DNA of 64,000 nt, taken from the NCBI GenBank assembly GCA_025738555.1, contig JAOVFP010000012.1, forward strand, positions 3,162,001 through 3,226,000, read 5' to 3'. Below, piece after piece: positions 1,395-28,757 of the stretch. The DNA comes from Cyathus striatus (Eukaryota > Basidiomycota > Agaricomycetes > Agaricales > Nidulariaceae). How positions within the stretch are numbered: the stretch's first letter is position 1; each line of letters starts with the position of its first letter. The notes below the pieces were generated by a model, which worked only from the letters and a program-made list of their open reading frames with translations, searched no databases and was not told the DNA's origin. Made by a program: the position numbers and the translations under genes.

Positions 1395-1629
1395 TGTAGA
1401 ATTATATTAGCTATTCAAATGTCACAATGATATGCCACCTCCACATATGCTTTTAGATAGTTTACTATACCTTTTATATATTCTACAGACAATGTGCTCC
1501 GCTTTCTATGTATTTAAGTAGTATACTATGTACTGTATTATCTTATCCATTTGCCTCTTGCTTCCTCCCCTTGTGTGCTCTGAGGTCAAATGTAATGCCG
1601 TCGTCGTCGATGCGTCGTTTATTTCAACA
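1395..1629. repeat. 5' long terminal repeat
   Basis: A 235-bp TG...CA repeat, matched by 3716-3950 with two single-base differences. It holds a TATTTAAG box that could serve as a TATA-like element. Confidence 0.93.
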
Positions 1630-3715: not shown

Positions 3716-3950
3716 TGTAGAATTATATTAGCTATTCAAATGTCACAATGATATGCCACCTCCACATATGCTTTTAGATAGTTTACTATACCTTTTATGT
3801 ATTCTACAGACAATGTGCTCCGCTTTCTATGTATTTAAGTAGTATACTATGTACTGTATTATCTTATCCATTTGCCTCTTGCTTCCTCCCCTTGCGTGCT
3901 CTGAGGTCAAATGTAATGCCGTCGTCGTCGATGCGTCGTTTATTTCAACA
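3716..3950. repeat. 3' long terminal repeat
   Basis: The 235-bp partner of 1395-1629, immediately followed by the second copy of TATTT (3951-3955) and then by the resumed helicase coding sequence. Confidence 0.93.
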
Positions 3951-7247: not shown

Positions 7248-7290
7248 CAGTACTTATCCCTCCCCCACCCTTTCACCTAAACTTCACGTG
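7240..7290. repeat. Left end of the 20.9-kb KDZ element with 8-bp target duplication
   Basis: The 8-mer ACCTTGAG (7240-7247) is followed by the terminus CAGTACTTATCCCTCCCCC. The right end (to 28111), read inward, is GAGGTCTTTACTCTCCCCC and is followed by the second ACCTTGAG (28112-28119). Thirteen of the first 19 terminal bases match, and the similarity continues through the next 25 bases. Confidence 0.75.
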
Positions 7291-7530
7291 AATTTCACGT
7301 GAAGGGGTGAAATTCACATGAAATTCACATTGAAGTAACATTTTCACATGAAATTCACGTGAATACATGTGAAGTCCACATGAATTTCACCTTTGTCTAG
7401 GATGTTCCAAAATCACAAAAATTTGGTGAAATCCAAGTGAAATTTAAATATGAAATTCACATGAAATTCACGTGAAATACACATGGAATTCACATGAAAT
7501 TCACATAAAATTCACATGAAATATATGTCA
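7271..7530. repeat. Subterminal palindromic word cluster (left)
   Basis: About 250 bp made mostly of TTCACGTGAA and near variants (TTCACATGAA, TTCATGTGAA). Each word is a 10-bp palindrome or nearly so. The same vocabulary fills 27815-28090 next to the other end, as expected of transposase-binding subterminal repeats. Confidence 0.8.
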
Positions 7531-7740
7531 TTTCCTACAAAAAAAAAAGTATTTGTGGAGGTAAGTTTATACAACATGCATTACTTGCACAAATATGTTA
7601 ACAGAATAAGATGGGCACAGATCACTTGTGCAAATGTGTTAATAGTACACAACATGCTTCACTGGTCCAAGTGAGTTATCAACAAAATGTATTATAATGG
7701 TGTGCAAGAACAAAACATTGTATATTAATATTAAAGTAAT
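7531..7740. other. Short AT-rich spacer, no gene seen
   Basis: An A-run is followed by short degenerate repeats resembling CACTTGTGCAAATGTGTTAA. I see no coding signal. Confidence 0.5.
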
Positions 7741-8480
7741 TAAGTCTCCCATCCCCTCACTGTACACCCTGCCCTTACTATGCATCCCCCCCCTCGCTAT
7801 GTGTCCCTGTCGTTATCCATCCCCCGCTCACTATGCGTCCCCCCCCCTCTCGCTATGCGTCCCCACTCGCTATGTGCCCCCCCCCTCACTATGTGTTCCG
7901 CTCCCCTCACTATGCCTTTCCCCCCCTCACTACACATCCCCCACCTCTCGCTATGCGTTCTGCTCCCCTTGCTATGCATCCCCCCCTTCACTATGTGTTC
8001 CCCCCTTCGTTATGCGTTCCCCCCCCCTCGCTATGCATTCCCTCCCCCCTCGCTATGCGCTATGCTCGCAACACAGGGGGGGACAGAGACGGTGGCATGG
8101 CGTTGTCGTTGTCGTTGCGACGCAGAGGGAAGGAAACTGGGTGGCATTGTGTCATCGTCGTCGTCATCGTCGCGACACAGAGGGAAGGACGGGGACGCTG
8201 GGTGGCATCGGGGCGGTGGCGTGGCGTTGTTGTTGTTGTTGTGATGCTGGGTGGCATCGTGTCGTCGTCATCATCGCGACGCAGAGGGGGGGATGGAAAC
8301 GGTGGCATGCATTGTCTCGCTATGCTCTATACACACACCCCCTCGCTATGCACTATGCGCTATCCAACCCCCCTCACTATGCTCTATACACCCCCCCCCC
8401 CTCGCTATGCGCTATGCACTATCCAACCCCCCTCACTATGTGCTACGCGCTATCCATCCCCCCCTCGTGCGCTGTCCTCA
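7741..8480. repeat. C-rich tandem array with CCCTCGCTATGCGT-type units
   Basis: Runs of C alternate with CTCGCTATGCG or CTCACTATG words at variable spacing, in two blocks (7741-8065 and about 8320-8470). Long open frames cross it in several phases because the unit lacks stops. Their proline, serine and tyrosine-rich translations are repeat artefacts. The C-runs could form i-motif or G-quadruplex structures. Confidence 0.8.
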
Positions 8481-9000
8481 TCCTTGTAGTGTGTGTTGGC
8501 GTTGGAGCGGGCGTTGTGGTCGGCTGGGTGGCATGACGTCGCTGTGTCGAGACGCAGAGGGGAGGATGAGGGCGCTGGGTGAGATGAGATGCGTGGGGGT
8601 GTCGCGACGCAGAGGGAGGACAGGGGCGCTGGGAGAGTTGAGACAGGGGACGTTGTCCTCACCGGCTGGGTGCCATGGCGTCGTTGTTGTCACAACGCAG
8701 ACGTGAGGACGGGGGTGCTGTGAGACGTGGGCGCTGGGTGACGTCGCAGGGACGAGACGCGCGGGGACGTAGCTGTCCTCACCGGCTGCGTGGTATGGTG
8801 TCATCGTGTCGCAACGCAGAGGAGAGGACGGGGGTACTGTGAGGCGTGGGCGCTGGGTGACGTCGCGGGGACAGAAGCTGTCCTCACCGGCTGCATGGCA
8901 TGGCATCGTCGTGTCGTAGTGCAGAGGGGAGGACGGAAGCGCTAGGTAACATTGCGGGGATGAGACGCGTAGGAATAGGGCGCCTTCCTCACCGGCCGGA
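8081..9000. repeat. GC-rich degenerate tandem repeat
   Basis: Recurring words include GGCATGGCGTCGTCGT, GACGCAGAGGGGAGGACGGG, GCGCTGGGTGACGTCG and GTCCTCACCGGCTG. The repeat is clearest between about 8540 and 9000, with units of roughly 100-130 bp. The word GCATGGCnTCGTCGTGTC recurs in the same orientation near 27177 on the opposite arm. CpG is abundant, unlike the neighbouring minisatellite. Confidence 0.75.
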
Positions 9001-9002
9001 GG

Positions 9003-10545
9003 GGTGCCAGCCATTTTGATCATATAACAGCAGTGTTATATGATTGTCCCAATCGAATAAGCCATGCCATTTTATGATTGGGATCATAAACAATCATTGA
9101 TTTGTTCTAATTGAATATTACTATTGTATGGTTGTATTAGATGATCATAGGCAATCATTGATCTGTTCTAATTGAATTTTACTATTGTATGGTTGTATTA
9201 GGTGATCATAGGCAATCACTTATTTGTTCTAATTGAATATTACCATTATATGGTTAAATTAGGTGATCATAGACAATCACTTATTTTTTCTAATTGAATA
9301 TTACTATTGTATAGTTGTATTAGATGATCATTGACAATCATTGATTTGTTCTAATTGAATTTTACTATTGTATGGTTGTATAAGGTGATCATAGACAATC
9401 ATTGGTTGGTTCTAATTGAATTTTACTATTGTATGGTTGTATTATGTGATCATTAGATGATCATAGACAATCATTTATCTGTTCTAATTGAATATTAATA
9501 TTCTATGGTTGCATTAGGTGATCATAAACAATCATTTATTTGTTCTAATTGAATATCACTATTGTATGATTGTAATAGGTGATCATTGACAATCATTGAT
9601 TTGTTCTAATTGAATATCACTATTGTATGGTTGTATTAGGTGATCATAGACAATCATTGATTTGTTCTAATTGAATTTTACTATTGTATGGTTGTAAAAG
9701 GTGATCATAGACAATCATTGGTTTGTTCTGATTGAATTTTACTATTGTATGGTTGTATTATGTGATCATCAGGTGATCATAGACAATCATTTATCTATTC
9801 TAGTTGAATATTAATATTCTATGGTTGCATTAGGTGATCATAAACAATCATTTATTTGTTCTAATTGAATATCACTATTGTATGGTTGTATTAGGTGATC
9901 ATAGACAATCATTGATTTGTTCTAATTGAATATCACTATTGTATGGTTGTATTAGGTGATCATAGACAATCATTGATTTGTTCTAATTGAATTTTACTAT
10001 TGTATGGTTGTAAAAGGTGATCATAGACAATCATTGGTTTGTTCTGATTGAATTTTACTATTGTATGGTTGTATTATGTAATCATCAGGTGATCATAGAC
10101 AATCATTTATCTATTCTAATTGAATATTAATATTCTATGGTTGCATTAGGTGATCATAAACAATCATTTATTTGTTCTAGTTGAATATTACTATTATATG
10201 ATTGTATTAGGTGATCATAGACAATCACTTATTTGTTCTAATTGAATATTACAATTATATGATTGTAATAGATGATCATTGACAATCATTGATTTGTTCT
10301 AATTGAATATTACTCTTGTATGGTTGTATTAGGTGATCATTGACAATCATTGGTTGGTTCTAATTAAATATTACTATTGTATGGTTTTACAAGGTGATCA
10401 TAGACAATCATTGATTTGTTTTAATTGAATATTACTCTTGTATGGTTGTATTAGGTCATCATTAGGTCATCATAGACAATCACTGATTTGCTCTAATTGA
10501 TTATTACTGTTATATGAATGTATTATGTTATTATAAACAATCGTT
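9003..10545 (+). repeat. Left subterminal minisatellite (about 60-bp units)
   Basis: About two dozen units near 60 bp, each with GATCATAGACAATCATTGA, TTGTTCTAATTGAAT and TTGTATGGTTGTATTAGGT words. Blocks near 9560-9800 and 9890-10120 are nearly identical, showing a higher-order duplication of several units. It is preceded by a non-repeated segment (9008-9085) whose reverse complement lies at 27070-27160. No CpG is seen in the units. Confidence 0.92.
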
Positions 10546-10747
10546 GATATTATATAAAAGAATACATCTATTTCATGCATTATGAAGGTATATTACATTT
10601 ATACCAGTTTTACAGATAATTATTAACACTCACATATTAATTCTGAATCTTTCAGAAAATGTTAATTAAAATTAACTATTTATTAATGTACCTATAAACA
10701 TATAAGCTACATTGGATATTAACTGTCATGACCTGCTAATACCAATA

Positions 10748-13700
10748 CTAATTCAGATCATTACCAGTATTTTCACTTACATAATCCTGCCAATATTCCT
10801 CTTCATTATTTCCAATCCCAACTTCACTATCATCATTACTATCATCATCATCACTAGCATCACTACCATCAACATTATCACTATCTTCACTACTATCACT
10901 ATTGTCACTATCATCATTATCTTCATCAGTTGATATTCCAGATATTAACATGTTATTGTTTTCAGCCCAAATTGGTGTATAACTGTCATTTTTAACCACA
11001 GGCAACCACTGTTTGGCAAAGCGCTGTGCAAATCTTTTACAAATGGATGCTTGTTTGAGTGCATAGGCCTTTACTCCCTGCTTAATATCTGATTCTACAT
11101 TTATTTTGTAGTCTCTTATATCAGATATACTTGTCCACCATTTTTCTTTCCATTCAAAGTATGCAATAACCCGTCGCATTTCCTCTCTTAGAATAAGTAC
11201 TTCCTCTTTCCATCTATCTCTTCGTGCACGAGCTTTTGCCCATTCCAGCTTAAGACTATTATTTCCTTCATTCTTCCCTGATGAATTATTGGATACCAGC
11301 CAAATCCATGACATTTCAAATCTCCCACTACTTGATCTATCATCAGGATCTTGTCCTGGTCCTTGTATATCCTCATCTTTTAGTTCAAATAAATTTGACT
11401 GCCAATTTCCATTTGGGTCAAGTGAAACTACTGCTGCATATGCTCTTCGATAGCTATCTGCATGAAGCTGTGTTTTGTTTTTAAAACTTGTCTGCAATTT
11501 TCTCATATGAGTATTTGGTTCATTTCCTGTGCCAGATATATTTAACTGTTTGAATGTCTTTACTGTGAAGATTATGCGAAGATGATGCCGGATGTTAGCT
11601 AGTGCATCACTTGCTTGTGCCAGTCGAAGTTTCAATTCTAATTGTGCTGCTTTCTTAATTGTTGAAGTTGTATGTAACTGTACTGGAAGTCCTGAAGGAA
11701 GGTTTAAAGGAACTGACTCAACTTCAACTGCCATCTTATCTGAATTTGCTTCCAAGTTAGAAGTTATTAAACTTTTAACTTCAGGCATATATGTTAACTG
11801 AACTTCTTGCCATTTCAAAATTTTGCTGGCAAGAGCAATTTGTTTATTTTGAAGATCTGCAAGGTCTTTTGATATTGGATTTTCTTTGAGATTTGAAACT
11901 TCAATCTTGAGTAGATGTCTACATAACAATATGAGATATGTACATATGTTACATATCAAGACTTACTGTTGTTCTTCAAGTTCAAATCCTTGAATCAAAA
12001 ATTTAGTTAAAGTAATTTTATGTTTTGAAGCAATTTCTATTCCAGCATTTGCTACTTCTTCACGAGTTAATTCCAGTCTAACATCTTGCAATGTTGTAGC
12101 TAATTACTTGTTAGATTGAATTTAAATACATATAATTTACTCACTGCACTCTGGATCATCATATGGGTTTGGCTTTGTATGATCCATCTCCCATGCTACT
12201 ACTTCTGCTTCCCATTCTGCAGTAATAGAAGTATCAAATGTAGCATTAAACTTTTGAAATATTTCTTCCTGTTTACTGCTCATTGTAATAGCTTCCTTAT
12301 ATCGCTTAATAAAATGTTTGTCTATTATAATTTACTTAGTAGTGTGTTGCAATGGAAAAGTGAATGGACTAACCAAATCCAACAATCTTCTGGAAGTTCC
12401 ATCCAACCCATTGATCATTTAGTACTTCATGACGGGAGGCAGGTCCCATTTCACGTGTACTTGGGCGAAGATGATTGCTAGTAGACCATGTAGTTTCTAC
12501 TTCCTCTCCACATGTTCGACCTGCTCCTGGTAAATATGCCAAAGCAAAGTTACTTCTACAGGAACTACCATGGCCATTAATATGCCAAGAAGGAACTGCA
12601 ATATCAATATGCATATTAGAAGAAACTCTCATAGACTCAGGATGTGTTTCAATTCGCTTCTTCAGATTTTTAGACCATTGACATCCAATATCATAGGTAA
12701 TCACAATCCAAGTGAGTGAAATGCCAATAAGTGTTGAGAGTATAATGTAATCAATATTGCAATACCTATTATACCAATTATTATATAATAATATTAAACA
12801 AGTGTTTACTTGCCTTTCTCCTTTTTGTAAATCACCTGCACCATTACGGCAAATTAGAGTATGCCTAGAACATATGACAAGAGCTGTTCCAGTCACAGAA
12901 TGTCCTGGAGCTGATCGTATGCCAGCTTGCAGAATTGCATCATGTTGTGAATCACAAGTATTAATCTACTATATTATTAATAAATTGTAATGATATATTA
13001 TTCATCATACCTCAGGATTTTCAATCTGCTTTTTAAGATGTGTTTGATAATTTTGTTCTTCAACATAAGGACCCCAACCAGGCATGAGCTCCATATCCTT
13101 GATACCACGCTCTTTGCAGCTCAATTTGAAATTGGCATCAACAGCCAGATACATTATATACAGAAATCTTAAATCTTCTGATTTTTCCCAGTCTTCCGGA
13201 AGATTTTTATCTGGATGAGGGCATGCTGGACATTCAACTGTCAAGTCACCTTTCTTTGTACCTGCTATTCCTTCTGTGTGCTGACCTCTACCACCACGTT
13301 TACACATAAACAAGATTCTCCAAATTCGCATAACAAATAGAAATTCATTGTAATGCTTCTATAATATGAAAACTGTTAGTTTTAATATATTATTACAATT
13401 AATGCCCACCTTTTCATCTTCAAATCTGCACTTGTCAGTTTTTCTGCAAAGAGTATAATACCAGTCATAAAGAGTTGTCTTTGCTTGCAGTGTAAGCTCA
13501 TGAAATGTATCAAGGCATTCAAATGTGAATACAGTTTGAGGTCGAACAAAGCTAGCTGGAAACCAGCCAGCACGCAAAAGTTGGATATATCGGGGATAGG
13601 TTCTGTTTTGCAATCACAATATGAAGCTAAAACATGATGGACTCCAGTAACATCAACAACTGTCAAGTCAACAGTGGTATCATCTGGACTGGAACAATGT

Positions 13701-14553
13701 GCTCCCCCATGTCCAAGCTGAACACAAAGTCCAAGGTTCATAAGGTGATCTTTTTGAAAATAAGATCCATTCCATTTCTAAGCAATCATAAATTGTAATT
13801 GAGCTGCATTATCAAATTAATTTCTTACCTCTAATCGATGAAGTGGCAAATGTTCATGTCCCTTTATAATGCATTCTCTACATCTCAAAAGACAACCATT
13901 AAAACAATCTTTACATTTATAATGTCCATCTTCTTTTTTGCACTCTGAGCATTTATTCTCACTAGTATAGTCACCCTTGCCATCATGGCGAAGGAGCTCA
14001 TCCAGAAACTCATCTTGATATTTTACCCAGTCATTCAGTTTTGCCTATATAAATATTATATACACAGTCCATAAATATTAAAAAAAATTCTTACTGATAC
14101 TTTTTGATCACGCTTTCGTGACTTTAAAGGTTCAGGAGGTTGTTCAATTGGAATAGATTCATTAGCACTATATTTTGGTATTTCATTTGGTATTTCACTT
14201 GGTAGAGATGGTTGCTCTTCATCCTGTATAATTATGTCTTCATTTATAGTATGATCAACTTTGCGATGTCTCTGAGGCTCCTTCTGGAATTTTGTCTTGC
14301 CATTACTCTTCACAACTGACAGTGACGTGATATGTGAAGTACCACTATTTGAACTAGAGCCTTGATTCTGTTTTACTGACACATCAGAACTATCTGCAGC
14401 TCTATTATACACAGCTGATTGAGACTGAACAGCTGGACGGAATTGGGCAGGACGGAATTTGGCAGTTGTGCTTGATGATCTTGTAGCTGATAAGCGTCGT
14501 GAGCGCTTTTGGTTATTTTTAGATGTAGGAGAGCCTTGTCTCTTTGGAGCCAT
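10748..14553 (-). pseudogene. KDZ-superfamily transposase, nearly intact (one apparent frameshift)
   Basis: A DDE-type transposase of the Kyakuja-Dileera-Zisupton superfamily. Nine exons read cleanly: 14553-14095, 14044-13829, 13777-13410, 13358-13011, 12965-12814, 12765-12374, 12321-12145, 12099-11967, 11918-10748. Introns are 45-52 bp; all are GT-AG except a GC-AG at 12766-12813. Domains in order: a basic Ser-rich N-terminus, a CxC2-like cysteine cluster (KCSECKKEDGHYKCKDC, near 13920-13970), QLLRAGWFPASF, then candidate catalytic acids in AVDANF, TYDIGCQW and GEEVE with PSWHINGH between, and an acidic Asp/Ser tail. The frame breaks near 13600 between CKTE and PRYIQLLRAGW. One missing base explains it, and adding one base makes the total divisible by three (about 1138 residues). 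It may be an active source copy if the break is an assembly error. Confidence 0.88.
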
Positions 14554-14704
14554 TGTGGAGAATTGGCAGTAGTAGAATGTTGCACTACTGAAAACCTAAA
14601 GCAACTTTAATACTCATCCTGATATATAATGCATTCTGTGATGTGCATAGTCACAAGCAGTCATAGATAATGGATTGAAGTACTTGATCTGAAATGCGGC
14701 AGAT

Positions 14705-15330
14705 TTTCGATCATCACACAGCTTGATATTAATAAATCAATGTAGTATCATGTATTCCACCTGTCAGGCAGCCGAATTTTCTCATTAGTTCTTTCTTGGC
14801 ACCTCTCCCTTGGCACAACCCCCTGCTAGCACCCGCTACAACTCACAATAAACTCCATCCCCAATTCTCTATCCACAGTCTGACTCGCAAGCATCTCACC
14901 TGAAAATGTGTTCTTCGATTCAGCATCACGACATGCATTGTATTATCCATATGGCTATACACCCGTATCTATAATAATAGCTCTTCGATCACACAACTTA
15001 ATATTACTCACTTGCCTCCACTACAACTTGCAAGTGTCTCGCCCGAAAACGTGTTCTTCGATTTGACATTGAAACGTGCATTGTGTCATCGATACAGCCA
15101 TACACTCATATCTATAATAATAGCTCTTCGATCACACAATTTGATATTAATAAAGCGATGTTATAGCGTGTATTCCACCTGTCACATCAGCTGAATTCTC
15201 CCATTGGTTCGTTCTTGACACCTCCCCCAAATCTTTCTTCGATCACACGACTTGATATTAATAAAGCGATGTTATAGCGTGCATTCCACCTGTCACATCA
15301 GCTGAATTCTCCCATTGATTCGTTCTTGAC
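14705..15330 (+). repeat. Tandem repeat of about 110-280 bp units
   Basis: The word TTCGATCACACAnCTTGATA recurs near 14706, 14983, 15125 and 15236. It is followed in most copies by TTCCACCTGTCA, CAGCTGAATTCTCCCATT and TCTTGACACCTCCCCC. The last two copies are nearly identical. The array lies just upstream of the KDZ gene and may contain its promoter. Confidence 0.7.
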
Positions 15331-15619
15331 ACCTCCCCCAAATCTCCCCCCTTACCACAACCCATTGCTTGCCCCCGCTACAACTCACAATCAACTCCAT
15401 CCCCAACCCTCTGTCTACTGTCTCTGTTGCTCAACTCAACATCGCAACGTGTATCATACATTTGAATTTAGCACACTGGGTAAGTCTATCAGCTCCATAA
15501 ACTTCCCATTTCGACTTCATTCAACTATGTTTCTCAAAGAGCACTATTTTTCATACACAGGATAACCTCTGGTAAAAATATTCTGCCTATCACCGTTCTT
15601 AATATTTGTTCTACTGCAG

Positions 15620-15880
15620 GAAGCACCTGAGCTCTGGTATGACATTGGCATTCTCTATGACTGCTAAGGTATGCTCGGCCATGTGGAGGGAGCCTTATTT
15701 CTGTCCTTAGAACGAACAATGGTGCGTTTCATTTTCTACCTCTTAAACTTTGATAAAGCCAATAAATTTCTATCCCGTTTCAGCATAGTCTACAAGCATC
15801 AGCGCACATATGAAGATTCGATGCATCTCGTGCAATCCTGTGATTCCACTTGCTAATGTCAACATCTGGTTGTAAGTGAC
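15620..15880 (+). pseudogene. Fragment of an Ssn6/Cyc8-like TPR corepressor
   Basis: After a plausible acceptor at 15619 the reading gives APELWYDIGILYDC, a stop, then GMLGHVEGALFLSL. This aligns with the TPR repeats of fungal Ssn6/Cyc8, where relatives have LWxGIGILYDRYGSLDHAEEAF. After a decayed intron the stretch FDKANKFL and then SIVYKHQRTYEDSMHL and ANVNIWL match the following repeats. Ssn6 acts with Tup1 as a general transcriptional corepressor. Only about 70 residues remain, with stops and lost splice sites, so it is non-coding. It lies between the KDZ transposase and the next cargo gene and was probably captured from a host gene. Another TPR family is possible. Confidence 0.6.
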
Positions 15881-17700
15881 CACTCGACGTCTATTACTCT
15901 GCGATGAAAAGCTGAGCTAAGGCTCAATGGTTGGTGGTTCGCTCAGGGTGCTTTTTTAGGTGTGGATTGCATACCCTCATAGTAAGTCATACGCCAGTGA
16001 TGTATTGTGCATATATTAGTGCTAACAACACTGTAGATATAGGATACATGTTTGTCCCCATGTACGCAGGCTACGGCGCACTTCCTAGAGCTCGGGACAC
16101 TACAAAGGGCTCGAAGCTTTAGTGGTGCAAACTACACACTCTATGTCTTAGTGAGTATTACACTAATTGTATCCGCTAGCTTTCTATTGCATATCTCACT
16201 CAAATTTCTACTTGTACACCATGCAAGTCTAATTTATATTCTTTTACTGTGACTACTGTAGAGCAGGTGTTTCATCAAAAATCGACAATCTTCGAAGTAC
16301 AACGACCAAGTCACGTGACCGTCGCGTATGTCAATCGACGCATCAAACTACGGTTTACACGTTATACGTCTTTTTCTTCTCTCTCTTCACCGCTTCTCTT
16401 CATCCCCTTGATGCTGACCCCCGCTAAACGCTCCAGTTACGCACATAGAACACTCAATCGTCAAATCGGTGCTAAAGCAGTACAAGAAACCCCGACAACT
16501 CACCAGCTTGGCACTCGCCTATAACCGAGTCTCCCCATCCCCAAATTCCCTCTGAAAATTTTATTCTCAACTCGAACCACCGCTCTATCTCTCTCAAAAC
16601 TTACGTCTATCCTACGGTCCGACTTCCCTTAACTTATGTAGTAAAACTATCCCTCAATAAGTAGCTTACCCAACCTCTTTTCCTATATAAGCCTGTATCT
16701 ACCTGCTTTACACCCCAGTAAATATATCCCTCACTCAAGAACAGATCATATTCTTCGTCTATCTCATATTTCATCTCTATTCATTCATATCTCGCTTTCT
16801 ACCGTCTTAGAACCAGCTTTACATGACGTTGCCACCTCTAACGCTCTCAGGACTTATCCAGAACTCATTCCAGAGTTCCGCTGTCAACATTACGTTCCCA
16901 ACCGCTTCATTTTCTCGCTAACAGTTTGTTTGAGCACCTTAGGACGCCACAGGTTGAACGGTATTCAACCGACTCACTTTACATTTCTTTGTTTAGGTAA
17001 TAAGCTCGCCTTTTCCCTTACACTACATATGTCGAGGCTCTTCGGGTTTTGGTTTGGGTAGGACTTTTGTTCTTGGTGTTCCCTTACACTTGACGAAACC
17101 TGCTGGTAGCACATCTAACGTTGTCTGAGTGGATCCTTACGACCAATCAGCAATCAACATGAGAACATGAGAGATGTGACTATTCCGGAGTCGGCTCTTC
17201 TGATTATTGAATTGGACTTCAGGAATGCTGAATTGAAGTGTAGTGTTCTTAGAATTTAATTTAGGACTGATGGTTGCATCTGAGCCCGAAGTAATGGAGT
17301 CGATGATTGTATAAATTTAATGTGAATGATGAGCTGTATCTACTACTGACATCAAGTGGGAAACTATGAAGTATTTCAGTCTAGTAAATTGGATGCGATA
17401 ACATAGTGTGAAGATGTAATGAAATAAGTACACGCTTGTACAGACTTTGTCGGCCTTCAGGTACGGAGTAATGAAGAAACTGACAGATTCAGTGCGTATA
17501 TGAGTGGATAACATCCAGTCCGGTGTCAGTTGTGTATATAACTTAATAACGAAAACATAGTGACCAAGAGAAGTGTATATATTATTAGTTTTGTGAAAGT
17601 TTGTATCCATTTCTATCTGTATGTTAGTATGTTTGTTGTCGCCAATACTTACTTATTATCCTTGTTCCTTTTAGACCACTAGTGCACCAGTTTACGATTT
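15881..17700. other. CpG-normal spacer inside the KDZ element, no gene recognised
   Basis: Several splice-like junctions and short open frames occur (for example 15931-16122 and 16249-16524), but none gives a product I recognise. Pyrimidine-rich stretches near 16370-16800 look like promoter or leader DNA. It may hold further decayed parts of the TPR gene. Confidence 0.4.
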
Positions 17701-17728
17701 CAATGGTGATATGGATATATCACCATTG
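17701..17728. repeat. Perfect 12-bp hairpin
   Basis: CAATGGTGATAT at 17701-17712 is followed after four bases by its exact reverse complement at 17717-17728. It lies just before a candidate small inverted-repeat element. Confidence 0.8.
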
Positions 17729-17776
17729 CAACTGAACACAACACAACACACCAATACTAGTCATATTCAACTTAGG

Positions 17777-18494
17777 ACTGTACTGTACATGTATATGGTA
17801 ACCATATATATGGACCCGTAACCGTCCCGTTGAAGGTTCTTGGGAGGGTTGATATGGTATGGCAACGGTTATGGCTCTGTCAGTATAGAGACCATAAAAA
17901 TACGGCTGTATAACCGTCCTTTACAGTTATATGGTATATCTCTCAAATATTTCCTCAAAACAAATTAATGTCAAGCAAATTTCAATTCAAATTTTATAAA
18001 TGTATGTTAAAGAATAAGCGCTAGCTAAGCTTAGTACAATAAAAAGGATCTGTGGATGGACAGGTAGTGCAAAATAGAGAGGAAACAATTATGATTCATG
18101 TCCTATCACTCACATCTTTTTTTCTCAGTTAGCTGTCATCTAGTAATTTCGTTAGGGTATCTAGAAATATGATGGTTTTGTGTCCGAACTCTGCTGCCCT
18201 GTGGCTGAGATACATGAACTCTTGCTTATTACTCGCTGTTGAACTTACTAGCCATTTTATATCTATATTATCGCTGTGCTTTGCACACTTTTCATTTTTG
18301 ATATTATTGTACCTTACGACTAGAATCATTCACTTTGACCACGATTGCGAAAAAAGCCGCCCATATACCATATAAAACGGGCTGCAACCGTAAAACGAGT
18401 CTGTACTGTTTTTTCAAGCGGAAAAATTCCATCTATATGGTATGGTTTATGGGCAAACCATAACCGTCAAATAGCTATACATTATACAGTATCA
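17777..18494. mobile_element. Possible small inverted-repeat element (MITE-like)
   Basis: The left side reads ACTGTACTGTACATGTATA then ATGGACCCGTAACCGTCC. The right side, reversed, reads ACTGATACTGTATAATGTAT then TTGACGGTTATGG. Words such as ATATGGTATGG and ACCGT recur in both halves. I found no clear target duplication, so the borders are uncertain. Confidence 0.35.
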
Positions 18495-18539
18495 GTTTAT
18501 CTATTCACTGTCTGTTCTCACTGTTCTCAACGCTGAATA

Positions 18540-19700
18540 ATACATTACACCATCATTATGTCCACTTTCAGTCTCATTCATGTCAAAGTACAAATTAGAT
18601 AGAATGATTGGAATGTGAATGTGCTCTCGGCTATATGAAAAGTCATCTTGTCAAATACTAGAATATATACTGTCTTTATATTCTATTATCTATTAATGTA
18701 TGAAATAACACTCATTTTATTTTTTATCATGCTCTTATTTTTAGCCTCACGGAGTACTTCTAAAGTGAACTCTTACTAATTCCTTCTCTTAATACGGCAT
18801 GGCTTGACTTGGGCTTGACTAAACATTTGGGAGCTAATGCCAAGCAGTACGTGACTCGCCTGTGCATCGTCGTGTATCGCTAATGGTCTCAACACGTCTC
18901 TGCTACAGTTCCTCTTTGATGTCCTCACTGTCTCTGCTATATTACTTCTTATCTAGTAGGCTTCTACCCATCGTTCTCAAGAATGACACGATATTTTGGT
19001 ATTGTCGAGGCGCGCTATGACTATCGGATGGCTTGACAGCTAGAACTTCTATATGGGTTTACACCTACTCAGGACCCCTTTCCTGCTTTGTATCTCTACT
19101 TGTCGCCATAGAATGAGATATATCGGATCGCCGATTACTCTAGCTAAGTCCTCGGTACCATCTACTTTACTAACTATTCTGCTCTAGGATTGTTGTAGTT
19201 AATATCCACTAATCAGGAGTAATGCTCGGCACGCATTCTCGAGTAGTAATTTCTCGCCACCACCAGCAGCTCGTGAGTTAAACACTAGGATTTTCCTCAT
19301 GTACCCACCCCCTATTTTTCCTCTGACAATATTGACAAGTCTTGTAAACGTTACTGCAGCGTTGATACATATTTAACAGTACTGCAAATTAGGAGTACCC
19401 AAGTGTTAGTGCTCAACAACGAATGTAAATACAGTGCATTCGATTCAAAATCATTGACAGACGAAATAGAATGCAGGGACCCTTTCCCCGAAGCATGTGA
19501 AGATCCTTCCCCCTCCTTTCCCCTTCTCCAAGCTCATGACTCATGATCCTGGATGTATACAATGGTCTGGCACGCAAACAGGAACCGAGAGAAAAACTTA
19601 CCTTTTCCCTGGCTTTGTAGTAAGTAGGGCTCAACCTTTACGGTGACTTCTGCCTTGCTAGCAGTTCTTTCTTCACTGTTACATTCACCTTTCACACTGT
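18540..19700. other. Intergenic spacer, no gene recognised
   Basis: CpG-normal sequence without a long open frame. The end of this stretch (about 19400-19700) leads into the cargo gene, and a possible acceptor (TTGTGCAG) just before 19712 hints at an upstream exon. Confidence 0.4.
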
Positions 19701-19727
19701 CAAGTTGTGCAGGCCGAGACATTTGGG

Positions 19728-22171
19728 ATGACTAGGGACTCGTGGGCTACTGCTGATCAAGGTGACTGGCTCATTGCCAAAATACCAGGGTATATCGAAG
19801 CAAGGGAGAGTGGGAAGTCGAATGCGTGGTTTAGACGCTTATACAGCGATTGGGACAATGAGTGGGGACGACCGACTGATATGAGTTGGAAGGACAGGCG
19901 TACAGTAAGTGACATCAAATAATTATATGCATATTAACTTACAATACCCCACTATCATAGCAACTGAGTACTTGGTTTCGAAACCATATCTGTGATTCTA
20001 CAGCAACGACTCGAGGTATCCTGGATGTCAAACTAAAGAAGACACAGAAGAAGATACCTCAAGAATGGGAGGTATACCATGAGCTATACCATGATTATAT
20101 TGAGGACTCTGTAGATGCCGAGTGGGAAGAATATCTTTCATCAGTTCCACAGGGTGTAAAGCCAGAAAAATCACGATCTAATGTTGAACATGAAGTGGCC
20201 CAGAAACTTTACGATATTGAAGATGAAGATACTAAGAACGAAGTCAAAGCTCACCTGCAAGAGATACAGAATAGCAGCTGCAACGACACCTTGAAGTTTA
20301 AAGACAAAGCATCTTGCAACAAAGCATATGAGAAGTGAGTATATTGCTCTTGAGTATATTCAATGGACTTACACATAATTTAGAGCAATAGATCGACTTC
20401 CTGCCTCGATTAATTCGAAAATTGAGCAATTCATCAAGTTAACCGGGTGGAACTTCACTGTTTTTGCAGGCGGTCCACGTCCTCGTCGTGGTGGAAAGAT
20501 TGACACGCTAATGTAAGTCAGCTTTGTACTTGGCTTGCCTGATTTACGTGAATAATGGCATCTTACATTAGCCTTCACTATGGTACAGACCCAGATGGGA
20601 ATAACTGGAAGGAGTCTATAGGACACGAAAAGTTCGAGCAGGAAGTTGAGAACTTGTTTGACAACTTCCTGTATAAGTGTTTCAGTAAGCACATAGCTAC
20701 TACATTTCGATGTTTGAAAAGCTAATGTACATACCAAAGCTAAAGGACACTGTGATTCACGAAGTCTCGCTACAAGCTCAGAATCTACATCTGGCTCTGG
20801 ACGCAAGGATGCTGCTGAAGGAGGTGGCCTGAGTGGGGGGGGTGAAGGAAATGGTAGCGGTGAGAGTGAACAGGAGCAATGTCCTGAGAACCGACCAAAA
20901 CTGAACCTTCCCCATATCGAATATGTTACTACATCCAATGGCCAACGCATGTCTAAATATGATGCTACAAGGGACGACAACATCGCTGCGAACCAGAAGC
21001 ATCTTGCGGAGTTAGGATTAGGACCTCCACCCATCACTAAATGAAAGAAGCAGAGCTCGTCTTCCAAGATGAAGAAATCGCGCAGAGAGAAAAATGGCTC
21101 CGATACAACAGGAGGATCTGGGCGATCAATAGGACAGAGGTAAAGTGCTTCATGTGATTCATTTCATGAGCAACTGATTTCATGTCATAATACAATCTTC
21201 AGGACTTCTGTGGGGTTGTCAAACATTGATGACAGCATCACTGATACGTCAAAAAGCTCAGACTCAGACAACATCCTAGCGGTAAATGGGGTGGTTCCCG
21301 GGTGGGTTTGACAGTTGATTTATTTTTGCATATCTAACTCCTTTTAATATGAAGAAATTCTCCAGGCGCTGATTGTGATGCACACACTAGTGATGCTCTT
21401 GAACAAAGAGAGCAGAACAGCACCATCGAAAAGGACACCCACCAGACTGAAATGTACGTGCACAAATTATGTTACTTTCATTGGTGATCCTCAATAGTGG
21501 CAGTATGAGTGAAATTACAGTTAATGAAGTGGTAAATATAGGACTGCTTCCAGATTATGCACAGGCATACGTAGGATACCTAAATAATGTATCATCGGAC
21601 CTGCGCTGGAAAATCCTCGTTGCTGAGTGGAAGAAGTTCAAACTGAAGAAACCTGTCATATTAGTAAGTAATGACTTCGTTGCAAAGTTATGAAGCTTAA
21701 TGCATACAATACTAGCCTTTTTCTACTGTCAAACGCCCTGCAGAAGTAGCCTGGTGGATCCAACGTCACCGAAGCGCATTAGCTGTACCGGATATAATGG
21801 CACCGAAATTCGGGTCTGCTTGGACCGATTGGTGGGCCTCAATTCAACCTCAATGGCGTGTTTCAGACAATGGATTGCTTACAAAGTCCATGCCATCGGA
21901 GGATTTTGAATGGGCTTCCTTATTCCGTGGAGGGCCATTGGGGCTATGCTGTGTTGTTATATCGTTATCATGGTGGGTTTATGCAATTCAACAGGCACCA
22001 GATGACTCAGCAGAGAAGCTTTGGGATGCTGTAGAAGACGTCACCTGGGTTTTCCAGCAAGTCGGAACCCTACCGGTTATTACGGGTGCCAAACGATCTA
22101 TGGGGAATGGTTCAGGTCCCGTAAAACCAAAGAAGCGGTGCGTAAATATATTATATCATTTGTGCTATTAA
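19728..22171 (+). pseudogene. Conserved hypothetical protein, spliced cargo gene of the KDZ element
   Basis: A coherent multi-exon reading: 19728-19904, 19961-20334, 20384-20512, 20572-20684, a fifth exon from about 20742, and later exons to about 22171. It gives WATADQGDWLIAKIPGYIEA, KAIDRLPASINSKIEQF, LTGWNFTVFAGGPRPRRGG, LHYGTDPDGNNW, a Gly/Ser-rich linker, and a C-terminal block with PAEVAWWIQRHR, WTDWWASIQPQWR and FRGGPLGL. I know this arrangement only as a common unnamed family in Agaricomycetes; no catalytic motif is evident and I assign no function. Introns 1-3 are 56, 49 and 59 bp with good GT-AG borders. A TGA at 21042-21044 interrupts a Lys/Arg-rich stretch; Arg is plausible there. 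The rest reads well, so it is either a recent pseudogene or a shorter protein ending there. Confidence 0.65.
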
Positions 22172-22203
22172 ATAGAACCTCATATAAATATGAACAGCGC
22201 TAG

Positions 22204-24900
22204 AAAGTAAATAGAAGAATGGAAGAATATCCGTAACATTGTGTCCAGACAACACCCTACTAACCAATTTAAATCGCTTTAAGTTCTATATGATCATTTT
22301 CAGTTATGATTCAAATTTAGATACATTTACATTCCTTTAATATCTACATTTTAATAATGGACCATTTTCTGCTTTCACTATCACTAACGCTCCTTTATAT
22401 TTCTTTACTTACATCAACCAACATTTTAATCTGTTCTTGAACATTGGCTTTGATTAAATAAATTTGATATTATTGAAGTTATGCACAAGCGACAAGTGCA
22501 GGTGAGACCGATCGACAGGAAGCAGGCAAAGCACTGTTTGACATAGTGTAATCATGTTGTCAGATTGTGCTTCCATGCATCGCTCCCATACATTCTAATG
22601 CCTTCGATCCCCCCTCTTCACTCGCCCCCCACCCACTTCCGCTTTCCCCTACTGCCAATGCTCCACTCATCCCACATTATCACCCATGCTCTCTGTGTAT
22701 GCTCTCCCCCATATGCAACGTTCAATATATTTATAAGCTAGTTCCTTCCTGCTATCTCGCTCATTACTATCTCGCTACCACACTTCGATTGCTGCTGGAT
22801 GCGAGTCCACGGATGCGTGGCGAGCGTCGCACCTGGACTGATAGAAAGTACTACAAAACCCTAGAGCAGAGTAGTTAGTATGGTAACAGAGTAGCGAGGA
22901 CTTAGCTTAGTTGAATTAGTTATTATCATTGACACTTCCTGTCGACTTAGTAGCTTGATAGACTTAGTATGCGCGCGCCGGGTTAAAGTCAGTAAAGGGA
23001 AGGTAGAATTCTTCTCGAGTCCTAACTCGAGGTATATACACTAACGGCAATCGAAAGGGAATAACGCACGCGTGCTCTCACGTCGCCAGAGCCCAGGAAT
23101 TTGGTAAGGTAATGTAATCATATGGAATAGAAGACTAGAAACGGAAGATAACAACCGAAAGAGAAATGATAAGGTAATGAGCATATAGTGATGAAGGAGA
23201 GACCGTGCTTGAACCATGAAAGATGAATAGGACAGCTTCCCATTCCCAGTACTCCTCGAACCGATGCACGACGACGGCGACACTCTCTTGATGTTACCAC
23301 AGAACACATGACATTGGAGGTGACGATAGGCTACTCTCCCCAAAGTAGCGGAGCAGTGGACTAGGCTGCGGCTCGACAATGCGTGGTGGTGGCGGGGTGC
23401 TCTGTCGTCGGACACCGGTAGGTCGGAATATCGGAAAGAGAAAGAAGGAAGAAGGAATGTGTATCGTAGTGGAAAATGAGGGTGCTCATAATGAATTTGC
23501 AAAAAGGAAAGAACGATCGAGAGAAAATTGAAATAAAACGAACGGAAGATAATTATCCCCAACGCCTCGACCCAACTCCCTGTCCTTCCACCAATCGGAG
23601 CATAGCACGATGACGGTAAAATTCCAGTCACCGTGCCTCTGCATGCGAAGCCTCGGTCTTGAGGGCGAAACGAGAAGCTTGAGGATGAAAAGGGGTCTTG
23701 AGAGGGTGTGTAACCCTAAGCCCTAGCGTCTTGAGCCATCCGAAGGGCACAAAATGCCCAGAGAACCCGAACGTCGTCCAGAAAGGCCTTATTGGCACAC
23801 ACCGGGAGCACGAGGAGAAGTAAAAGCAGAGAGGTACTATGGAAAGCAGTAAGCGGAACACGTTATAGCGCAGGCAAGACGCGACAGCGTATACGCGCAT
23901 CACGTGTTGTTTGGCATCGGCTTCCCAATATTTGGCAAAGCTGCGCCACGTCTCTAAGTCCACACTGGAGAACGAAAACACAGAAATTTGAGTGCACTGT
24001 TTGCACAGCACGTTGTAGAACCAAGGTAAGAAAATATAAATGAGAAAATAGAAGGTTAGAGTAAGTAGAAATAGGTAATTAAAGATAAATGTGTAAATGA
24101 AACGAAGTGAATCAAATTATAAGTATAGTACTGGGTTGTACCAGTGTACCAACTACTCCCTCCACAGTACTCGACACTATTCCTGTCATCGCTGCGACTA
24201 CACTATCTTCATTAACTCCAAATTAAATAAAAGTAAAGACACTCCAAAGTAGGGTCCGGTTTTCTTAACATTTATTTAATGCTATAATATATTAGACTTG
24301 ACCTGCTTAGAGTAAATTTTTGCGGAAATAGCTGAGACAATTCATGCAGTAATAATAGCTGACAAGAGAGACTGGGCTACTGAACTGTCATATCTATATT
24401 ATACACCTTGAATAGTGAAATGAAAGATAAAATATGTCTAACAGAGCAAGCTGTGGTGAAAAAGATAGTAAATAAACAACACATTTCATACAGATGATGT
24501 GCAAGACTATTATGAATAACAACAGTATTGCATGTATAAGAATGTTGACAGAACAAGACGGTGTGCAGTTCAGCTTTTGATTGGTTTCTTGAGCTCATGA
24601 TTTAAGTATTCCTGTACTGGTTTTTCACTGCTATAGTTTTGAGCACTGAGTAGAAGTGCACTGAAATAGAGAGTGTTGAGAGATATTTGACCAGGTGAGG
24701 ATAGCAGAGATGCATTGTTTTGTAAATGAGCATGAGAAATATCTGCATAAAACATAATTACATGCAAAAACAAGGAGCATAAAAAGTGCTATACAGTCTG
24801 TCTACATATATAAATATCATCTTTATAATGTTTAAACATCTAGCATGTAGGTTTAACATATAATAACATGGAATATTTTGATTTTCAGCATATGGTAATT
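22204..24900. other. Intergenic region inside the KDZ element, no gene recognised
   Basis: A pyrimidine-rich, TATA-containing stretch (22560-22880) resembles a promoter or LTR-like segment. The ORFs at 23041-23631 (-) and 23628-24011 (-) have no features I recognise. From about 24040 the base composition turns AT-rich toward the right minisatellite. Confidence 0.4.
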
Positions 24901-24929
24901 ATGGCCACAAGTACAATAGTAATATTCAA

Positions 24930-27160
24930 TTAGAAACAATCAATGATTGTCTATGATCACCTAATACAACCATACAATAGTGATATTCATTTAGAACAAA
25001 TAAATGATTGTCTATGATCACCTAATACAACAATACCATAGTGATATTCTATTGGAGGGGATAAATAATTGTCTATGATCACCTAATACACCTATACAAT
25101 AGTGATATTCAATTAGAAAAATAAATGATTGTCTATGATTACCTAATACAACTATACAAGTGATATTTGACTGGAAAAAATAAATGATTGTCTATGATCA
25201 CTTAATACAACCACACAACAGTAATATACAATTAGAACAAGTAAATGATTGTCTATGATCACCTAATACAACTATACAATATTGATATTTGACTAGAAAA
25301 ATAAATGATTGTCTATGATCACCTAATACAACCACATAACAGTAATATACAATTAGAACAAATAAATGATTGTCTATGATCACCTAATACAACAATACAG
25401 TAGTGATATTCTATTAGATTAATAAATGATTGTCTATGATCACCTAATACAACCATACAATAGTGATATTCTATTAGAAAAAATAAATGATTGTCTATGA
25501 TCACCTAATACAACCATACAATAGTGATATTCTATTAGAATAAATAAATGATTGTCTATGATCACCTAATACAACTATACAACAGTAATATACAATTAGA
25601 ACAAATAAATGATTGTCTATGATCACCTAATACAACAATACAGTAGTAATATTCTATTAGAAAAATAAATGATTGTCTATGATCATCTAATACAACTATA
25701 CAACAGTAATATACAATTAGAACAAATAAATGATTGTCTATGATCACCTAATACAACAATACAGTAGTGATATTCTATTAGAATAAATAAATGATTGTCT
25801 ATGATCACCTAATACAACCATACAATAGTGATATTCTATTAGAATAAATAAATGATTGTCTATGATCACCTAATACAACTATATAATAGTGATATTCTAT
25901 TAGAATAAATAAATAATTGTCTATGATCACCTAATACAACCATACAATAGTGATATTCTATTAGAACAAATAAATGATTGTCTATGATCACCTAATACAA
26001 CTATACAACAGTAATATACAATTAGAACAAATAAATGATTGTCTATGATCACCTAATACAACAATACAGTAGTGATATTCAATTAGAAACAATCAATGAT
26101 TGTCTATGATCACCTAATACAACCATACAATAGTGATATTCATTTAGAACAAGTAAATGATTGTCTATGATCACCTAATACAACTATACAATATTGATAT
26201 TTGACTAGAAAAATAAATGATTGTCTATGATCACCTAATACAACCATACAATAGTGATATTCTATTAGAAAAAATAAATGATTGTCTATGATCACCTAAT
26301 ACAACAATACAATAGTGATATTCTATTAGAAAAAATAAATGATTGTCTATGATCACCTAATACAACAATACAGTAGTGATATTCTATTAGATTAATAAAT
26401 GATTGTCTATGATCACCTAATACAACCATACAATAGTGATATTCTATTAGAACAAATAAATGATTGTCTATGATCACCTAATACAACTATACAACAGTAA
26501 TATACAATTAGAACAAATAAATGATTGTCTATGATCACCTAATACAACAATACAGTAGTGATATTCAATTAGAAACAATCAATGATTGTCTATGATCACC
26601 TAATACAACCATACAATAGTGATATTCATTTAGAACAAGTAAATGATTGTCTATGATCACCTAATACAACTATACAATATTGATATTTGACTAGAAAAAT
26701 AAATGATTGTCTATGATCACCTAATACAACCATACAATAGTGATATTCTATTAGAAAAAATAAATGATTGTCTATGATCACCTAATACAACTATACAATA
26801 TTGATATTTGACTAGAATAAATAAATGATTGTCTATGATCACCTAATACAACTATACAACAGTAATATACAATTATAACAAATAAATGATTGTCTATGAT
26901 CACCTAATACAACAATACAGTAGTGATATTCTATTAGAAAAATAAATGATTGTCTATGATCATCTAATACAACTATACAACAGTAATATACAATTAGAAC
27001 AAATAAATGATTGTCCATGATCACCTAATACAACCATACAATAATAATATTCATTTAGAGCTTCAATGATTGTTTATGATCCCAATCATAAAGTGGCATG
27101 GCTTATTCGATTGGGGCAATCATATAACACTGCTGTTATATGATCAGAATGGCTGGCACT
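24930..27160 (-). repeat. Right subterminal minisatellite, inverted relative to the left one
   Basis: About 35 units near 60 bp containing AATGATTGTCTATGATCACC, TAATACAACnATACAATAG and TGATATTCTATTAGAA, the reverse complement of the 9003-10545 units. Larger blocks recur (for example around 26040-26290 and 26520-26770). It ends at 27070-27160 with the inverted copy of the left non-repeated segment, including the word CATATAACACTGCTGTTATA. Confidence 0.93.
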
Positions 27161-27169
27161 TATGCCGGC

Positions 27170-27600
27170 CAGGTAGCATGGCTTCGTCGTGTCATAGGCA
27201 GAGGGGAGGATGGGGGTGCTGGATGAAATGGTGGCTGTCGTTAGCTTGTCCTCGTCGTCCTCGTTCTCGTTTACCCACCTGATATAACCTTCGTTGTCTT
27301 CATCACCCCTCTCCCTCTCCCTTCACCGTATATTGTCCTCCCACACGCCCCCCTGCCCTACCTCATCTGTTGCTCCTTGTTCGCCTTGTGTGCCTTCGAC
27401 ATTGCCAGTGGTTGGGAAGCGGGGGCGAGAAAGAAGAGGGAAGGGGAGACAGAAGGGGAGGAAGGGAGGCGAAGGGAGATGGAAGGGAGAGCCCAGGAGA
27501 GCAGAGGATGAGTGGTGGTGGATGAGCGGAGGAAGGGTGATGGTGGACGGGCGGACGTGGCAACGTCGGAGGGTGCCGTTAACCAAAACGGTCTGACACT
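27170..27600. repeat. GC-rich and purine-rich tract near the right arm
   Basis: It begins with GCATGGCTTCGTCGTGTC and GGCAGAGGGGAGGATGGG, the words of the 8.1-9.0 kb tract in the same orientation, then becomes a G/A-rich run at about 27415-27560 capable of G-quadruplex folding. Overlapping open frames here look like low-complexity artefacts. Confidence 0.6.
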
Positions 27601-27654
27601 GCCACGTACGGCTGCATGCTTGACATATACACTGAGATATCATTCAGAAATAAC

Positions 27655-27753
27655 GCCTTTGTGGTGTAGTGGTATTAACTGCTTTAACGTGTGAATTATT
27701 TGTTTACATAATAGTATGTGAGTGCGGGTTCGATTCTTCATGGTGCCAAAATG
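27655..27753 (+). other. tRNA-like sequence with RNA polymerase III boxes (tRNA relic or SINE head)
   Basis: TGGTGTAGTGG (27662-27672) fits an A box and GGTTCGATTC (27727-27736) fits a B box, spaced a little further apart than in an intronless tRNA. The acceptor and T stems do not pair well and there is no clean 3' partner for GCCTTTG, so a functional tRNA is unlikely. Confidence 0.35.
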
Positions 27754-27814
27754 TTTTTTTAATATAAGTAAGTATGTACAGTTGCATTTACTAATATGAA
27801 AACATGGAATCATG

Positions 27815-28090
27815 TTTACCTGAATTCCATGTGAATGCCAGGTGAGTTTCACCTGGCATTCACATGGAATTCAGGTATTCACGTGTAATTCACATGAATT
27901 TCATGTGGGGTTTTTCACGTGAATTTCACCTATTCACGTTGTTCCACATGAAATTCATGTGAAGTAATTTGCAGGGGACTCCCTCAAAATCAGAGAAAAT
28001 CGAGGCCCAAAACTTCAGGTGAATTTCACATGAAATTCATGTAAAATTCACGTGAATAGGTGAAGTTCACGTGAAATTCAGGTGAAAAGG
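27815..28090. repeat. Subterminal palindromic word cluster (right)
   Basis: Multiple TTCACGTGAA and TTCACATGAA-type palindromes, including the long inverted pair around 27825-27880 (GAATTCCATGTGAATGCCAG and its reverse complement). It mirrors the cluster at 7271-7530. Confidence 0.8.
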
Positions 28091-28119
28091 GTGGGGGAGA
28101 GTAAAGACCTCACCTTGAG
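28068..28119. repeat. Right end of the 20.9-kb KDZ element with 8-bp target duplication
   Basis: Read inward from 28111 the terminus is GAGGTCTTTACTCTCCCCC, followed by ACCC, a T-run and TTCACGTGAA words. Outside it, 28112-28119 repeats ACCTTGAG from the left border. Confidence 0.75.
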
Positions 28120-28390
28120 GCACCAGTCATATATATCATGGGAGCTCAATCCATGATATTTTGCTTGGGTTATTCATTGGTAAAAGTTGGGGACTTGTGA
28201 AGTTATTTCTTCTGAGTCAGATGATAGATCTGTTGACTCAGAACTCATGTCAGAAATAGAGTCTACATCACTTTCTAAATCAGAGGCTGATCCAGATAAC
28301 ACAATAGAGCCTTCTTCATCAGATAATTCTTCATGTCCGTCATATGGGCTCTCAATAAACTCAGCATCAGAAGTTGCCATGAGCACAATT
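28120..28390 (-). pseudogene. Displaced N-terminal side of the DUF6589 gene
   Basis: On the minus strand an ATG at 28386 opens a Ser/Asp/Glu-rich stretch of 70 residues, then non-coding or spliced sequence runs to the KDZ border. Reading through the border with one duplication copy removed gives DWCLKVIIMMKAVGIDLP, which continues into the DUF6589 body at 7239 without a frame break. That the acidic ORF is the true N-terminus is inference. Confidence 0.5.
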
Positions 28391-28590
28391 TTCAGGAAGT
28401 ATTAGACTTTGTCATATGCTCTCTTGCCCCTACTTAATATGAGCTCTAACACTCAATCGTTTCTTCTTAGGTCACCTTACTGTACAACACAATTATATAA
28501 TTACAAGTTACAACTGCTAATCTGTTGTACAAAGTATTATATATCTACCAAACAAAGAGTTGACACCAAGTTGACATGTTGAATATTGGC

Positions 28591-28757
28591 CTTGATGTGA
28601 CTGCACATGCAATTGTGACAGTGATGTGACCTAGAGGTATGGATTGCAGCCCCAAATGCCCCAGACATTGTAGGAAGGCTCATGCAAGCCACAGACATAA
28701 AATTTTCAAATTCTCACAAAATTACTTCCTAAAATAGATGGGTATGAGACTACCTCA
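28591..28757 (-). repeat. Right inverted repeat of the helicase/DUF6589 element
   Basis: The reverse complement begins TGAGGTAGTCTCATACCCAT and matches 132-303 through CAATGTCTGGGGCATTTGGG and CATACCTCTAGGTCACA. It is AT-richer than its partner, with CpG sites replaced. It lies upstream of the displaced DUF6589 N-terminal side. Confidence 0.75.

Follow-up and report, generated by a model that had tools for sequence, protein, structure and literature searches.

KDZ transposons of the Kyakuja lineage make target-site duplications (TSDs) of 7 bp, and two Kyakuja families from Laccaria are described, in the accessible part of the same source, with 5'-CA..TG-3' ends, no terminal inverted repeats (TIRs) and a TET/JBP gene (Kojima 2025, PMC12730594). 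The Cryptococcus elements KDZ1-3 encode a cysteine cluster, have TIRs of 139-241 bp and measure 9-11 kb, as far as the accessible text of PMC12730594 and PMC12810828 goes. Pfam labels the domains CxC5 and CxC6 as associated with KDZ transposases. In Pleurotus ostreatus, poMSH4 is broken by an insert of 6,792 bp that carries a CxC5/CxC6 open reading frame (ORF) of 739 aa; the available text of PMC7641404 links this insert to a Copia retrotransposon and finds CxC2 beside every intact KDZ gene, CxC5/CxC6 never. Active hAT elements are reported from Marasmius in the accessible part of PMC9674265, and subtelomeric RecQ helicases from Agaricus, with no link to DUF6589 in the accessible part of PMC7473861. 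Here we analyze a 64,000-nucleotide stretch of Cyathus striatus DNA (C12:3162001-3226000, hereafter the window), in which a DUF6589 gene is interrupted by an insertion of 20,864 bp. An earlier note on this DNA had read the insertion as one large KDZ transposon. We conclude, with a probability of about 0.96, that the 20,864 bp between the two copies of ACCTTGAG are two nested DNA transposons, a KDZ element within a 2.7-kb outer element.

The insertion in the DUF6589 reading frame extends from 7248 to 28111 and is flanked by an exact 8-bp duplication, ACCTTGAG. The empty target was found in two paralogues (C1:5457969-5457976 and C4:2790472-2790479), where the matches to the two flanks of the insertion (6500-7247 and 28112 onward) overlap by exactly 8 bp, one ACCTTGAG. 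The DUF6589 frame of the C1 paralogue is open over this single copy (MATSDTEF... via ...CLKV... to SMTRPAGA). In the C4 paralogue the same frame runs over the empty site, with one stop further downstream, and in the window stops are present on both sides of the insertion. The parts that belong to the outer element are the following:

7240..7247, + strand: left copy of the 8-bp TSD ACCTTGAG of the outer element, single at the empty sites on C1 and C4
7248..8998, strand unassigned: left part of the outer, non-autonomous element, its last 7 bp being the left inner TSD copy
7283..7522: left cluster of TTCACRTGAA palindromes of the outer element, candidate transposase binding sites
27172..28111, strand unassigned: right part of the outer, non-autonomous element
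27818..28090: right cluster of TTCACRTGAA palindromes of the outer element
28112..28119, + strand: right copy of the 8-bp TSD ACCTTGAG of the outer element, single at the empty sites on C1 and C4

The left terminus of the outer element is CAGTACTTATCCCTCCCCCACCC, and the related right terminus, reverse-complemented, is GAGGTCTTTACTCTCCCCCACCC. Searches with both ends covered the genome (107 Mb, 24 contigs), and the best 40 of 247 candidates on the left and the best 40 of 348 on the right were scored. All 30 left-end loci, window included, begin CAGTACTTATCC at window base 7248. On the right, 29/30 loci align to base 28111, 27 of them with GAGGTCTTTAC in reverse complement; the termini are CAG...CTC in 29 of the 30 right-end loci and ...CAC in one. 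Among 21 left/right pairs the 8-bp flanks were identical in 13, had 1-2 mismatches in two and 4-7 in six, and without the window copy an exact 8-bp TSD was seen in 12/20 pairs. None of the 13 exact duplications exceeds 8 bp, and 420 control cross-pairings of the flanks yielded no exact match and six with two mismatches or fewer. Bases 7248 and 28111 therefore mark the genuine termini of a family that makes 8-bp TSDs and has copies of 2.3 to 27 kb. Palindromes like TTCACRTGAA (at most one mismatch) number 11 in 7248-7560 and 11 in 27780-28111, out of 28 in the whole window. hAT transposons have 8-bp TSDs and CAG...CTG ends; the outer element has the 8-bp TSD (exact in 13/21 pairs) and differs in its CAG...CTC ends (29/30).

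Without its insert the outer element is 2,691 bp long, and the window copy is of the short, non-autonomous kind. Four of the seven short outer copies align to it without interruption, running from element position ~1752 straight to ~19918. These are C7a (2,746 bp), C10 (2,790 bp), C7b (2,257 bp) and C17 (2,772 bp), and the outer element of the window is 96.8, 94.8, 94.2 and 78.8% identical to them, respectively. At the inner site the sequence of both C7a and C10 is ...CCTCACCGGCCGGGTAGCATGG..., in which CCGGCCG occurs once. In the window, the following features lie at and between the two copies of this 7-bp motif:

8992..8998, + strand: left copy of the 7-bp TSD of the inner element, CCGGCCG, single in the empty copies C7a and C10
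8999..27164: inner KDZ element, 18,166 bp, with ends common to 39 other listed places per end
8999..9082, + strand: left TIR of the inner element, about 80 bp, including a palindrome
9082..10462, - strand: 61-bp minisatellite array in the left arm of the inner element
10748..14595, - strand: KDZ transposase gene with several exons, CxC2 at about 13385-13777 and KDZ at 12369-13358
19728..22171, + strand: conserved partner gene, transcribed away from the transposase gene, with an in-frame TGA at 21042-21044
24912..27059, + strand: 61-bp minisatellite array in the right arm, inverted relative to the left one
27082..27164, - strand: right TIR of the inner element
27165..27171, + strand: right copy of the 7-bp TSD of the inner element, CCGGCCA, with one mismatch

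The inner element forms a family of its own. A copy on C7 (C7:3656083-3675290), compared with the window in sampled stretches, is 95.6-95.7% identical to it in two long stretches. Similarity stops at window 8999 and 27164, inside the 20.9-kb insertion; the copy has its own TSD, ATATTGA (7/7), and in the 2.2 and 1.6 kb that flank it the outer arms have no match. Searches with the inner ends and junctions scored the best 40 of 183 candidates on the left and the best 40 of 133 on the right. Among the matches listed, all 39 other left-end places start at 8996-9004 (22 exactly at 8999) and all 39 other right-end places finish at 27159-27169 (21 exactly at 27164), some of these places being the opposite end of a copy, matched through the TIR. 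The flanks of 19 pairs were fetched, leaving aside a C11 pair with ends 59 kb apart and C13:1562279-1574846; 7-bp flanks were identical in 15, had 1-2 mismatches in two and 5-6 in two. Every one of the 19 begins GAGGGGTGCCAGCC, and 18 end CACTTATG, one CACTTATA. We noticed that 18/19 are derivatives of 2.1-5.5 kb with both ends kept, and one measures 9.6 kb; we saw few long copies.

A domain scan of the ORFs found a single KDZ domain within 7248-28111 (PF18758, E 8.4e-48), accompanied by CxC2 (PF18803, 4e-20, plus 9.7e-13 in a second frame). The inner element thus combines a KDZ domain and a cysteine cluster with ends and a TSD common to several copies, as KDZ transposons do. Cores of the 61-bp repeat occur 20 times in reverse orientation in 8999-10600 and 35 times forward in 24900-27164, with none in the middle of the element and none in the rest of the window, and the C7 copy has 33 and 39 cores in its two arms. 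The palindrome clusters are part of the outer element and the minisatellites part of the inner one. The CxC2 exon of the window shifts frame midway and the window copy of the partner gene has the TGA at 21042-21044; in the C7 copy, for which the check covered the halves of the CxC2 exon and that partner codon, both halves are in one frame and no stop is present at the codon.

A second case of nesting was found on C9. There, an inner derivative of 4.6 kb (C9:2086691-2091259), with the TSD CACTCCT on both sides, sits in an outer copy (C9:2084906-2091956) that has the TSD GCACCTTC on both sides.

The earlier note regarded the extra gene as cargo. Two observations would suit casually captured host DNA: a profile scan assigned the partner protein to no Pfam family, and among 1,464 candidates one outside homologue was found at E <=0.001 (Cyathus striatus P0001, 51% identity). 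However, the partner gene has 72 matches in the genome, and of 66 partner loci 47 have a KDZ exon in divergent orientation at a distance of no more than 20 kb, a number that did not exceed 4 in any of 1000 random placements. For this count, 72 KDZ rows were hand-picked from a listing of 159 KDZ matches, six of the 72 partner matches were dropped as fragments of loci already counted, and the sizes of six contigs were guessed for the random placement, two of these values being 8-9% off. Casual capture is therefore rejected as a very improbable origin: the partner is a conserved companion of KDZ genes across the genome.

A single 20.9-kb KDZ transposon with cargo, bounded by the CAG...CTC ends, has in its favor the exact 8-bp TSD, the related ends, the symmetrical arms and the one transposase within; moreover, 8-bp TSDs are made by Zisupton and Cryptococcus KDZ1, according to the accessible text of PMC12730594 and PMC12810828. 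Yet KDZ-family copies end at the inner bases and have 7-bp TSDs, and the outer family has copies that lack KDZ, two of which carry a CxC5/CxC6 gene. In addition, the junction between outer and inner element is spanned by the window alone among the 40 listed matches per junction query. The inner ends of the C7 copy, the empty outer copies and the 7-bp TSDs of the inner pairs led us to reject the single transposon, which we regard as scarcely credible. The earlier note had itself named copies whose similarity ends elsewhere as evidence against its reading, and the KDZ copies end at 8999 and 27164. Much of its description stands nonetheless: the outer limits and the 8-bp duplication at 7240-7247 and 28112-28119, the related ends, the mirrored palindromes and minisatellites, the one KDZ transposase, and the DUF6589 coding sequence cut at the site, continuous at the C1 empty site and in the same frame at C4. 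The empty-site check that it proposed joined the flanks with a single ACCTTGAG. Its naming of the whole after the KDZ gene has to be given up, as this gene belongs to a second, nested transposon with ends and a 7-bp TSD of its own, and the outer element occurs at 2.7 kb without KDZ and in longer relatives with CxC5/CxC6.

Two nested elements might also have arrived in one step, if nesting came first and the outer ends then moved the whole 20.9 kb, KDZ element included, into the DUF6589 gene. Intact outer ends and an outer TSD of 8/8 against an inner TSD of 6/7 are as expected from that order. However, a single mismatch in a TSD says little about the order of events, and neither the best 40 of 183 nor the best 40 of 133 candidates included a second copy of the junction. 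With the window alone spanning it among the matches listed, there is no sign of the nest moving as one piece, and we consider this course unlikely. We also noticed a 27-kb copy of the outer family (C3:2021572-2048714) with an exact 8-bp TSD, a CxC5 match and KDZ and partner matches of another subfamily, probably one more nest. It was rejected as a copy of the window nest, as the 5.8 kb sampled shares no DNA with the inner element of the window.

Longer relatives of the outer element encode a CxC5/CxC6 zinc-cluster protein. Two outer copies of ~7 kb with exact TSDs (L071 and L072) gave CxC5 at 2.1e-18 and 7.3e-23 and CxC6 at 1.2e-8 and 1.2e-6; at a threshold of E 1e-5 neither shares DNA with the inner element, and the scan of 8 ORFs from these two copies, which gave CxC5 and CxC6, found no hAT domain. 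In the genome listing (150 of 471 candidates, so that counts per outer copy are lower bounds), a CxC5 match lies inside at least 8/14 paired outer copies of >=6 kb and in 0/7 shorter ones. The best protein match of the CxC5/CxC6 protein, from Cyathus striatus, is 96% identical over 61% of the query. Aspartates D427 and D594 are present in 45/45 sequences and D621 in 44/45. Because of these conserved aspartates and its place inside the elements, we infer that the protein is catalytic and probably the transposase of the outer family.

Several observations weigh against two nested transposons with these roles. The inner TSD of the window is 6/7, not 7/7. Flanks with 4-7 mismatches in 6/21 outer pairs and with 5-6 in 2/19 inner pairs mean that some pairings or copies are rearranged. 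The short outer copies on C4, C11 and C12 are too diverged or deleted at the site to show the crossing, and C7b and C17 have no exact CCGGCCG at the crossing point. Both 7-kb copies read have stops in the CxC5/CxC6 gene, and a CxC5 match was seen in only part of the longer outer copies (at least 8/14). The structure model of the CxC5/CxC6 protein is poor (pLDDT 66.7), and a PDB search with it matched no transposase. Transposition, the binding sites and the roles of the CxC5/CxC6 and partner proteins are matters that we infer.

We explain the two nested transposons by two steps. First, the 2.7-kb CAG...CTC element entered an older mobile unit, within its DUF6589 gene, through an 8-bp staggered cut, as the two empty sites show. 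The CxC5/CxC6 protein of the ~7-kb relatives may have provided the machinery, presumably recognizing the common terminal 23 bp and the TTCACRTGAA clusters. The 18.2-kb KDZ element then entered the outer element through a 7-bp staggered cut, as the empty outer copies show. This element may act via its CxC2-KDZ DDE transposase and the divergently transcribed partner protein, and its long inverted 61-bp arrays resemble repeated subterminal sites to which one of these two proteins could bind. Since the transposase and partner frames are both broken in the window copy, it could probably move only in trans.

The older mobile unit that encloses the insertion has two parts in the window:

140..7239: left part of the enclosing element, with a TIR at 140-303, RecQ-like pieces on the + strand from 251 and DUF6589 on the - strand at about 5090-7239
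28120..28752: right part of the enclosing element, with the start of the DUF6589 frame (- strand) and a TIR at 28591-28752

The TIR at 140-303 (TAGTCTC...) pairs with 28591-28752, giving the ends TAGTCTC...GAGACTA. A 9-bp TSD is exact in 2/4 copies of this element (CCCGCGATC and GCATCAACC), matches at 7/9 positions in one and is absent from the window copy. The RecQ-like pieces matched PF00270 at 4.7e-8 and at 1.3e-4, the latter below the cut-off. Piece 891-1103 had 35 PDB matches, of which 32 are named WRN, RecQ, Q1, Q5 or Bloom helicase and three only 'ATP-dependent DNA helicase'; piece 4188-4517 had no PDB match. The DUF6589 domain (PF20231) was detected at 3.6e-37 and 1.4e-27, and its protein has at least 298 matches in a protein search, the best from Cyathus striatus with 70% identity. 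Structure prediction gave an RNase H-like fold with conserved D, D and E that resembles two DDE transposases, Hermes and that of the P element, and DUF6589 is accordingly the gene of a predicted RNase H-fold DDE transposase. hAT and P transposons have 8-bp TSDs. The DUF6589 unit differs from them in its 9-bp TSD, its TAGTCTC...GAGACTA ends and the accompanying RecQ-like helicase. A literature search, with most subscription journals outside its coverage, found no paper naming DUF6589.

Taken together, it is somewhat more probable than an even chance that three independent kinds of cut-and-paste transposon are stacked here, two of them undescribed in the literature searched. DUF6589 with RecQ would then be a new DDE lineage with 9-bp TSDs, and DUF6589 (hundreds of fungal members, no named function) a transposase; CxC5/CxC6 would be the mark of a family of its own with 8-bp TSDs, not KDZ accessories. 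If this is true, nesting as at this locus could have helped to create the apparent association of CxC5/CxC6 with KDZ. The delimitation of a giant transposon is also corrected, as a naive TSD call would assign an 18.2-kb KDZ element a family and a TSD that are not its own. Points of interest are the conserved KDZ partner gene, the element with DUF6589 and RecQ, for which 'DUF6589 is a transposase' becomes a testable claim about a family with at least 298 matches, and the CxC5/CxC6 elements, which gain a concrete anatomy of termini, target duplication and non-autonomous derivatives.

A stretch of the outer element that to the eye resembles tRNA box A/B (27655-27760) was not supported by ARAGORN, which found no gene in 7000-29000. 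All matches of an Rfam scan were under the gathering scores, mostly microRNA models on palindromes, and were taken as chance. Elsewhere in the window, palindromic and 19-52-bp minisatellite arrays at 52375-57578 flank ~53.9-56.8 kb and are perhaps arms of another element, and complex tandem arrays with units of 267, 118, 99 and 217 bp lie at 34527-36619.

Among known systems, the inner element shares with Kyakuja the KDZ transposase, the 7-bp TSD, a right terminus ...TG and an agaric host. It differs from the Laccaria families, as the accessible part of PMC12730594 describes them, in its 5'-GA start (5'-GA..TG-3' against 5'-CA..TG-3') and its TIRs of ~80 bp. Compared by description, it thus agrees with Kyakuja in its TSD and not in its ends and TIRs. 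The Laccaria families carry TET/JBP, whereas our scan, which covered 20 of 68 listed ORFs, gave no Tet_JBP match; a genome search with PF12851 also gave none and is uninformative, as control genomes likewise gave none. Zisupton and Cryptococcus KDZ1-3 have the KDZ transposase in common with the inner element, and KDZ1-3 also the cysteine cluster and TIRs. According to the accessible text of PMC12730594 and PMC12810828, however, Zisupton and KDZ1 have TSDs of 8 bp and KDZ2 and KDZ3 of 4-8 bp, and KDZ1-3 have CxC1 at 9-11 kb, in contrast to 7 bp, CxC2 and 18.2 kb here; the 8-bp TSD at this locus is that of the outer element. The ~7-kb copies of the outer family resemble the poMSH4 insert of Pleurotus ostreatus in size and in their CxC5/CxC6 protein. 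That insert made an oyster mushroom strain sporeless and, in the available text of PMC7641404, is linked to Copia, with no ends or TSD given, and not recognized as a DNA transposon, whereas both termini and 8-bp TSDs are defined for the outer family. These ends and TSDs suggest, by analogy, that inserts of the poMSH4 type may be transposons in their own right.

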